Shown one piece after another: positions 4,909-25,090 of a stretch of 46,914 nt of DNA. The first letter of the stretch is position 1. The number at the start of each line of letters is the position of its first letter. Source of the stretch: Chitinophagales bacterium (lineage in GTDB: Bacteria; Bacteroidota; Bacteroidia; Chitinophagales; JADIYW01); NCBI GenBank assembly GCA_020848475.1, contig JADKZZ010000069.1, positions 1 through 46,914 of the forward strand, given 5' to 3'. Below the pieces are notes generated by a model. The model did no database searches and had not been told where the DNA came from. It worked only from the letters and a program-made list of their open reading frames with translations. Position numbers and translations under genes: made by a program.

Positions 4909-6387
4909 ATGCTTCATCAACGTCTATCACAGAAAATGCTACAAAAGCTGTCGCCACAACAGATACAGCTGATGAAGTTATTGCAAGTTCCTACTGCAAA
5001 TTTAGAACAACGCATCAAAGAAGAATTGGAAATTAATCCTGCATTGGAAGAAAGCATCTCGGATTATGATAATGATAAAGAAGACTTATCGGAGCCAGAA
5101 CAAATACGCGATGACGAGGAAAACTATGAAAACAATAATGAAGATGATGATTTTGCCGATAGCTTAGATATTCAAGAATATACCAAAGATGATTATGATT
5201 ATACGAATGACGACGGCGATTATCGAGGTAAAGAAGATAAAAAACAAACACCATTTGCCATCGGCAAAACGTTTCATGATTTTTTAGATGAGCAATTGCA
5301 CTTATTAGATTTAGATGAACACGAATGGCAAATAGCCGACCAACTCATTGGTAGCATTGATGATGATGGTTACTTGCGTAGAGAATTAGATGCAATTGTC
5401 GATGATTTGGCATTTCAAAAAAATGTATCGACATCAGTTGAAGAAATTGAAGAAGTATTGCGAACTATTCATCGCTTCGATCCGCCTGGTGTTGGTGCTC
5501 GCAATCTGCAAGAGTGCTTGCAAATACAATTAGAACGCAAAGAACAAAATAGCCATGTAAAATTGGCTCTGCGCATTATTACCTTACAATTTGAGGCTTT
5601 TACAAAAAAACATTACGATAAGCTATTAAAATCGCTAGATATAGAGGAAGAGCAATTGAAAAAGGCACTCGATGTGATATTACACCTCAATCCGAAACCA
5701 GGCGGTGCTAGCGATAATACGACTTCGGTTAATCATCAAACAATTATTCCTGATTTTACAGTTGAAAATAATAATGGTGAGTTAGAAGTATTGTTAAATG
5801 GTAAAAATGCACCTGATTTAAGAATCAGCGACTCGTTTAAAGAGATGCTTTCATCGTATGGCAAAGGCGCCATGAAAGACAAGAAACAGAAGGAAGCTGT
5901 TGTGTTTATCAAACAAAAAATAGACGCAGCCAAGTGGTTTATCGATGCCATAAAACAACGCCAACACACTTTATTTGTAACGATGGAAGCTATCGTCGAT
6001 TTTCAAAAAGAATATTTCTTATCAGGCGATGAGATGAAGCTACGTCCAATGATTTTAAAAGATATTGCAGAAATTACAAGCTTGGATATTTCTACTGTAT
6101 CACGCGTGGCAAATAGCAAATATTGCCAAACAGAATTCGGTGTTTTTTCTTTGAAACATTTTTTTTCCGAAGGCTTACAAACAGAAGGTGGAGAAGAGGT
6201 ATCAACACGAGAAGTGAAGAAAATATTGGAAGATTTAATTGCAGTGGAAGACAAATCAAAACCATTAAGCGATGAGTTTCTGACTGAACAGCTGAAAGAA
6301 AAAGGCTATAATATTGCTCGCAGAACAGTAGCAAAATATAGAGAACAGCTCAATATTCCTGTTGCGCGATTGCGCAAAGAACTGTAA
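4909..6387 (+). CDS. rpoN: RNA polymerase sigma-54 factor
   Basis: 492 residues with the complete sigma-54 layout. The glutamine/leucine-rich activator-responsive region I is at 1-50 (SPQQIQLMKLLQVPTANLEQRI). A strongly acidic region II linker follows at about 51-115. The core-binding domain contains FDPPGVGARNLQECL. The helix-turn-helix is around 382-410 (DIAEITSLDISTVSRVANSKY), and the RpoN box ARRTVAKYREQ is near residue 469, contacting the -24 element. Sigma-54 needs an AAA+ activator; none is encoded in the window. The order asnS-rpoN on one strand suggests shared transcription. Confidence 0.97.
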   Translation: MLHQRLSQKMLQKLSPQQIQLMKLLQVPTANLEQRIKEELEINPALEESISDYDNDKEDLSEPEQIRDDEENYENNNEDDDFADSLDIQEYTKDDYDYTNDDGDYRGKEDKKQTPFAIGKTFHDFLDEQLHLLDLDEHEWQIADQLIGSIDDDGYLRRELDAIVDDLAFQKNVSTSVEEIEEVLRTIHRFDPPGVGARNLQECLQIQLERKEQNSHVKLALRIITLQFEAFTKKHYDKLLKSLDIEEEQLKKALDVILHLNPKPGGASDNTTSVNHQTIIPDFTVENNNGELEVLLNGKNAPDLRISDSFKEMLSSYGKGAMKDKKQKEAVVFIKQKIDAAKWFIDAIKQRQHTLFVTMEAIVDFQKEYFLSGDEMKLRPMILKDIAEITSLDISTVSRVANSKYCQTEFGVFSLKHFFSEGLQTEGGEEVSTREVKKILEDLIAVEDKSKPLSDEFLTEQLKEKGYNIARRTVAKYREQLNIPVARLRKEL

Positions 6388-24108: not shown

Positions 24109-24224
24109 TTTATGTAGATTTTATGGAAAATATATTATAACCAATGCAACCTTTTTCCCAAAATTTATTTCTTATAAAAAATTGGTATAAGATTTGAATA
24201 TTCGGATAAAGAAAAAATACATAA

Positions 24225-24557
24225 ATGAAATCTATGACAGTAAATAATAATAACCATGTACAACCTGAACTAAAAATTGACTTACAAATTTTACGTAAAT
24301 CTGTTTTAGTGCTACGTTCTGTCAACCATAAGCTTCGTCAGGAAATTATACAACTAATAGATAAAAATGGCAAAATGACGGTCACAGACTTATACATTAA
24401 ACTACGTATAGAACAGTCAGTAGCATCACAACATTTAGCGTTGCTTAGACGTGCAGGTGTAGTTGTCACCAGCCGCGACGGAAAATATATCTACTATTCT
24501 GTTGACCACGAACGTCTCGACGAAATTTCGAGATTGCTCTCAGAACTAGTAAAGTAA
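24225..24557 (+). CDS. ArsR-family winged-helix regulator (copy 1)
   Basis: 110 residues with an ArsR-type winged helix: LRSVNHKLRQEIIQLIDKNG, then the recognition helix region IEQSVASQHLALLRRAGVV and the wing SRDGKYIYYSVDH. The EQS-x-x-SQHL signature replaces the usual helix-3 metal site ELCVCDL, and the protein has no cysteine at all, so classical As/Cd/Zn thiolate sensing at that site is excluded. It closely resembles the next gene, 133 bases downstream on the same strand. The N-terminus (MKSMTVNNNNHVQPELK) is variable, and an ATG three codons further in is an alternative start. Its target and signal are unknown. Confidence 0.87.
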   Translation: MKSMTVNNNNHVQPELKIDLQILRKSVLVLRSVNHKLRQEIIQLIDKNGKMTVTDLYIKLRIEQSVASQHLALLRRAGVVVTSRDGKYIYYSVDHERLDEISRLLSELVK

Positions 24558-24601: not shown

Positions 24602-24629
24602 AAATATTTTGAGAAATCTCAAAATATTT
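24602..24629. promoter_or_regulatory. Perfect 13-2-13 palindrome, probable ArsR operator
   Basis: AAATATTTTGAGA and TCTCAAAATATTT are exact reverse complements separated by AA. The site lies between the two ArsR-family genes, 24 bases before a -7 box and thus over the -33 region of copy 2. ArsR/SmtB operators are classically 12-2-12 inverted repeats, so geometry and place fit autorepression. Because an AT-rich run follows, a terminator for copy 1 is the alternative. Confidence 0.65.
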
Positions 24630-24653
24630 TATATTTTATTACAAATAATTCTA

Positions 24654-24661
24654 TATATTTG
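24654..24661 (+). promoter_or_regulatory. Candidate -7 box for ArsR copy 2
   Basis: TATATTTG is an exact TAnnTTTG match 29 bases before the ATG of the second regulator, directly downstream of the palindrome. Confidence 0.55.
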
Positions 24662-24690
24662 TAGTGAACTAAATCATAAAAAAAGATTTT

Positions 24691-25023
24691 ATGGAAAATT
24701 TTGAATTTAACACCGAGAAAATCGAGAAAGCAGCAGAGCTTTTGAGAGCCGTGGCTCATCACTTAAGATTAAAAATCATTAAGCTGATCCATGAAAAAAA
24801 AGAAGTGAATGTAAACGTAATTTACAACACACTTAAAATTGAACAGTCTATCACATCACAACACCTAAAAATTCTAAGAGGTGTAGATGTAGTTCGCACA
24901 AGAAGAGATGGCAAAAAGATTTATTACTCACTAAACTATGAACGTTTAGAAGCAATGCATCGCGGTATCGACTTGTTCGAAGAGTGGACACAAAATCGCA
25001 AAGCAGCGAAGAAGAAAAAATAA
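24691..25023 (+). CDS. ArsR-family winged-helix regulator (copy 2)
   Basis: 110 residues, paralogous to the previous gene over the whole winged-helix core: LRAVAHHLRLKIIKLIHEKK, TLKIEQSITSQHLKILRGVD and RRDGKKIYYSLNYERL. Like copy 1 it has no cysteine, so a thiol-based metal site is absent. The C-terminus ends in a basic AAKKKK tail that copy 1 lacks and that might add DNA contacts. It has its own -7 box and a palindromic operator candidate upstream, and a strong hairpin with a U-tract directly downstream. The AhpD-like gene follows; a redox-linked role is possible but is only context. Confidence 0.87.
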   Translation: MENFEFNTEKIEKAAELLRAVAHHLRLKIIKLIHEKKEVNVNVIYNTLKIEQSITSQHLKILRGVDVVRTRRDGKKIYYSLNYERLEAMHRGIDLFEEWTQNRKAAKKKK

Positions 25024-25048: not shown

Positions 25049-25090
25049 AAACTATTATTTGTCGTACTTTAGACAGATAATAGTTTTTTT
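25049..25090 (+). terminator. Strong hairpin with U-tract, abutting the next start codon
   Basis: AAACTATTATTTGTC (25049-25063) pairs with GACAGATAATAGTTT (25072-25086) with a single G-T wobble, and T residues continue to 25090. The next gene's ATG is at 25096. It is either the terminator of the ArsR gene or an attenuator in the leader of the AhpD-like gene. Confidence 0.75.

Follow-up and report, generated by a model that had tools for sequence, protein, structure and literature searches.

A candidate regulatory palindrome upstream of arsR2 in a tandem ArsR locus of a Chitinophagales genome

In the 46,914-nucleotide stretch of DNA analyzed here (the window), a perfect palindrome of two 13-nt arms around an AA centre (AAATATTTTGAGA-AA-TCTCAAAATATTT, positions 24602–24629, centre 24615.5, assigned to neither strand) lies upstream of arsR2, the second of two tandem genes for ArsR-fold regulators. 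Judging from sequence, we regard this palindrome as a candidate cis-regulatory binding site for a dimeric protein that is locked to the arsR2 promoter, most likely bound by ArsR1 or ArsR2, and give this reading a probability of about 0.5. A dimeric regulator would bind directly upstream of the −33 region and modulate arsR2, and the adjacent ArsR-fold dimer would be the likeliest binder, with ArsR1 acting on arsR2 or ArsR2 acting on its own gene. That a protein binds here, which one it is, and in which direction it regulates arsR2 are inferences: the bound protein might interfere with polymerase contacts upstream of −33 and so repress, or might be an activator like HlyU, another ArsR-fold protein. 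ArsR folds comprise both repressors (SmtB, CzrA, and PagR) and activators (HlyU).

The sequence-only reading had described a perfect 13-2-13 inverted repeat ending 24 bases before an exact −7 box, and both observations were confirmed. The −7 box of arsR2, TATATTTG (24654–24661, forward strand), matches TAnnTTTG; 24 nt separate it from the end of the palindrome at 24629, and the palindrome centre lies 38.5 nt upstream of it. Extended from 24599, the repeat becomes 16-2-16 with one mismatch. The same reading had placed the palindrome over the −33 region, which was incorrect. When the −7 box is set at −12 to −5, following flavobacterial mapping (PMC9723704), the palindrome extends from about −64 to −37; it therefore adjoins the −33 region on the upstream side with no overlap.

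Six dinucleotide-shuffled versions of the window, 281 kb in total, contained no perfect inverted repeat with arms of at least 12 nt, while 245 kb of stretches from the palindrome's own genome, used as background, contained six with arms of at least 13 nt, the palindrome included. The palindrome exceeds chance and is a non-random dyad. The genome-wide search that had been proposed for it was run and returned a single place even with as many as 3 mismatches allowed, and a genome-wide regulon based on the palindrome was rejected. A search with its 18-bp core, allowing 2 mismatches, gave six further places in the genome versus one for the reversed control; one of the six (L152) is within or adjacent to a reading frame. 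A different palindrome, TTTTTTTGTTTCACGTGAAACAAAAAAA, was observed on contig C12 of the same genome (L142:65–92) and contains what we take to be a parS (ParB-binding) site.

We compared the site in eight congeners, namely the window and G001–G007, in which ArsR2 is 84–96% identical to that of the window; these genomes are labelled Chitinophagales, Sphingobacteriales, or Bacteroidota, and the host genome is a Chitinophagales-type MAG. Dyads centred between −42 and −38 relative to the −7 box were scored out of 12: the window scored 12, G007 10, and G003, G005, and G006 9 each, whereas G001, G002, and G004 scored 6 each and have no dyad. Scores of at least 9 in this band thus occurred in 5/8 congeners versus 0/70 other promoter-like TAnnTTTG sites in the 245 kb of own genome. 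When the scan was not restricted to this band, the strongest dyad in the arsR1–arsR2 gap fell at the palindrome's spot in the window, G003, G006, and G007, and also in G005 by a 14-position count. The core TGA-GAAATC-TCA of the window, that is, TGA-N6-TCA, has this TGA-N6-TCA form in common with G006 and G007. The −38 to −42 band was picked after the data had been seen, and the P values are to be discounted by about 15 (the number of bands): local dinucleotide shuffles of the four other positive congeners gave P = 0.017, 0.02, 0.0015, and 0.04, joint shuffles reached four of the seven other congeners in 0/2000 cases, and when arms were cross-paired between genomes, 0.4% of derangements reached the observed sum if the window was included and 5.8% (P = 0.058) if it was left out.

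In the five congeners with a dyad, its centre is 38.5–41.5 nt away from the −7 box, a range partly fixed by the search band, and about 57–84 nt away from the arsR1 stop. As calculated from gap lengths and anchors, the spread is 3 nt relative to the −7 box versus about 26 nt relative to the arsR1 stop. Because the first distance is steady and the second variable, the dyad tracks the arsR2 promoter rather than the preceding gene. Its recurrence supports a putative regulatory site tied to the promoter of arsR2. Conservation of the palindrome sequence within the genus was rejected, since the letters vary. As read from these sequences, the position of the dyad is conserved in the genus while its letters are not.

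Some observations argue against a binding site. The ArsR2 recognition helix, LKIEQSITSQHLKILR, is identical across seven congeners, yet the site letters change, and G001, G002, and G004 are dyad-free. It is conceivable, if improbable, that the region is simply AT-rich, UP-element-like or bent DNA, in which perfect symmetry arose here by lucky drift. The 91% A+T content of the palindrome region and the three congeners with no dyad are consistent with this, but a perfect 13-bp arm pair was reached in no shuffle of the window, and self-complementarity at the palindrome's spot was significant in 4/7 congeners. More distant relatives bear on the same point. Averaged over 49 distinct relatives from other genera and aligned at the −7 box, the dyad profile peaked at −37.5 with 5.65 of 12, compared with a maximum of 4.73 over 200 shuffled sets. 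The sequence under this peak is about rATTA-N10-TAATATTTcTTTG and ends in TTTG at the −33 position. The arsR2 promoters of Saprospiraceae carry at the palindrome's place, about −37.5, an ATTA/TAAT dyad unlike that of the window, which speaks for a promoter-locked site, and keep AATTA...TTTTTTTTAATATTTcTTTG; their covariation at −37.5 showed symmetry not above the cross-genome expectation, so that an AT-rich UP-type element would account for it equally well. This fixed AT-rich motif of Saprospiraceae could be a symmetric operator or a UP-type element.

The main rival to a regulator-binding site is a poor, AT-rich intrinsic terminator of arsR1, in which a 12-bp RNA hairpin followed by a U-rich stretch would separate arsR1 from the independently promoted arsR2; we consider this rather unlikely. 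With a folding energy of −10 kcal/mol (z = −6.3), the hairpin lies 44 nt past the arsR1 stop, resembling the intrinsic (Rho-independent) terminators of its own genome as a hairpin after a gene with a U-rich tail. Conventional terminators occupy the same gap in at least 28/81 relatives, those of two same-family relatives end right at the −7 box, and the other strong perfect inverted repeats in the 245 kb are mostly terminator-like, with A-runs and T-runs. Against this, the stem of the palindrome has only two G-C pairs, whereas most terminator-like hairpins of the genome have at least three and mostly consist of A-runs, a G+C-rich core, and T-runs; its U-rich tail, UAUAUUUUAUU, is broken, and a terminator scan made no call. 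A conventional terminator was found in this gap in 0/8 congeners, and the dyads of the other congeners lack a stable hairpin with a U-tract but keep their distance to the promoter; the palindrome also differs from the genome's own terminators in being locked to the next promoter. The proposal that the palindrome is a regulatory site at the arsR2 promoter is thus favored by a dyad at an equal distance from the −7 box in 5/8 congeners and by a hairpin that makes a poor terminator.

Sequence conservation in the arsR2 upstream region is centred elsewhere. Identity to the majority among congeners was 86% for the block from TATATTTG to GAACTAA, 60% for the palindrome region, and 50% farther upstream. 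Most congeners retain the −7 box, which reads TAAATTTG in G003 and TATATTTT in G001; TATATTTGTAGTGAACTAA is nearly invariant in seven, and GAACTAA (24665–24671, forward strand), over the expected transcription start, is invariant in 8/8; the truly invariant part is this −7/GAACTAA block. A weaker second dyad, TACAAATA-N8-TATTTGTA (24640–24663, neither strand), takes in the −7 box and is also present in G005. The true ArsR operator might lie in the GAACTAA start block or in this second dyad, with the palindrome serving another factor or nothing, which we judge possible though on the unlikely side; this reading overlaps the others, and the confidences do not sum to one. The invariance of GAACTAA and a TGAAC half-site there in several congeners point this way, as does the usual overlap of ArsR-type operators with the promoter or transcription start (PMC8790569). 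Within the genus, the letters GTGAACTAA overlap the arsR2 start; many Saprospiraceae (e.g., L121 and L122) have them in the leader of arsR1. However, the half-site has no conserved dyad partner, and the invariance perhaps reflects only core promoter and leader constraint.

Both genes of the pair, arsR1 (24225–24557) and arsR2 (24691–25023), lie on the forward strand and encode 110-aa proteins that are 44% identical over 88 aa. The two proteins scored 31.7 and 28.9 bits against PF01022 (winged-helix HTH_5; cut-off 22) and 64.9 and 76.8 bits against NF033788 (cut-off 55), and thus are ArsR/SmtB-fold regulators that pass curated cut-offs. Both are cysteine-free and thus have none of the cysteines with which arsenic, cadmium, or sulfide is usually sensed (alpha3 CxC and the BigR cysteine pair). 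The closest solved relatives of ArsR2 are PagR (2zkz) and HlyU (3jth). Most of the relatives retrieved, from across Chitinophagales and Saprospiraceae, have the genes in the order tsaB-arsR1-arsR2; downstream of the pair, the window and most members of its family carry an AhpD/carboxymuconolactone-decarboxylase-like gene, polA, or both.

A sigma-54-like element, TTGGTATAAGATTTGAA (24182–24198, forward strand), precedes arsR1, and such an element is found before arsR1 in many relatives (e.g., L099, L103, and L065; TTGGCAC-N5-TTTGCA in L099 and L103). The window also contains rpoN, whose DNA-binding domain is encoded at 5905–6378. Between tsaB and arsR1, a ATGCAACCTTTTT-like motif was observed at 24144–24151; it is present in 6/8 congeners. 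Downstream of arsR2, a 15-8-15 hairpin with a T-tract (25049–25086, forward strand) keeps its structure in the congeners; most have nearly the same stem sequence, and the changes in G001 and G007 are compensatory. Its role as a repeated operator was rejected, and because the genome holds only one full copy, we treat it as the probable terminator of arsR2. The T-tract ends within 9 nt of the start codon of the AhpD-like gene, and expression of that gene may therefore need read-through or a promoter inside the hairpin.

The palindrome is a real but ordinary candidate regulatory site, and the tandem ArsR module around it is more interesting. Our literature search on a tandem ArsR pair beside tsaB found no description of it or of a signal to which it responds. 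We tentatively propose, with considerable doubt, a regulatory module of Chitinophagales and Saprospiraceae new to description, in which a cysteine-free ArsR1 with a sigma-54-like promoter beside tsaB is followed by a cysteine-free ArsR2 with a primary-sigma promoter and an upstream dyad of fixed position and changing sequence. If ArsR1 or ArsR2 binds the palindrome, it would be the first operator for a tsaB-adjacent regulator pair across a large Bacteroidota group and an example of operator position being kept while operator sequence changes; as a lone site it is otherwise ordinary.

The earlier interpretation as a whole is partly supported. Its view that arsR2 regulates itself through a 12-2-12 operator of the typical ArsR/SmtB kind is not supported, given the variation of the site under an invariant ArsR2 recognition helix, the three congeners without the dyad, the lack of another good genome copy, and the comparison with known operators. 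Like the SmtB/ArsR-type operators of SmtB, ZiaR, AztR, and AzuR (PMC8790569), the palindrome fits a 12-2-12 layout, as AATATTTTGAGA-AA-TCTCAAAATATT, and stands beside an ArsR-fold gene near a promoter. An inverted repeat of about 12-2-12 is thus found at the arsR2 promoter, upstream of −33 with no overlap, whereas known operators lie over the −35/−10 elements or the start. The published core is TGAA-N6-TTCA, in AATACCTGAACA-GA-TGTTCAAGTATT (PMC8790569), or TGA-N8-TCA (TGAACA-NN-TGTTCA); the TGA-N6-TCA of the palindrome is 2 bp narrower, and its sequence is not conserved along with the regulator. Because the canonical TGAA-N6-TTCA core is not present in the palindrome, membership in the SmtB/ArsR operator class is not supported. 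Compared with non-metal ArsR regulators, ArsR1 and ArsR2 both fall below the curated cut-offs of the PagR and SdpR models, but resemble regulators of the PagR, HlyU, and SdpR type in being cysteine-free. SdpR and PagR are autorepressors.
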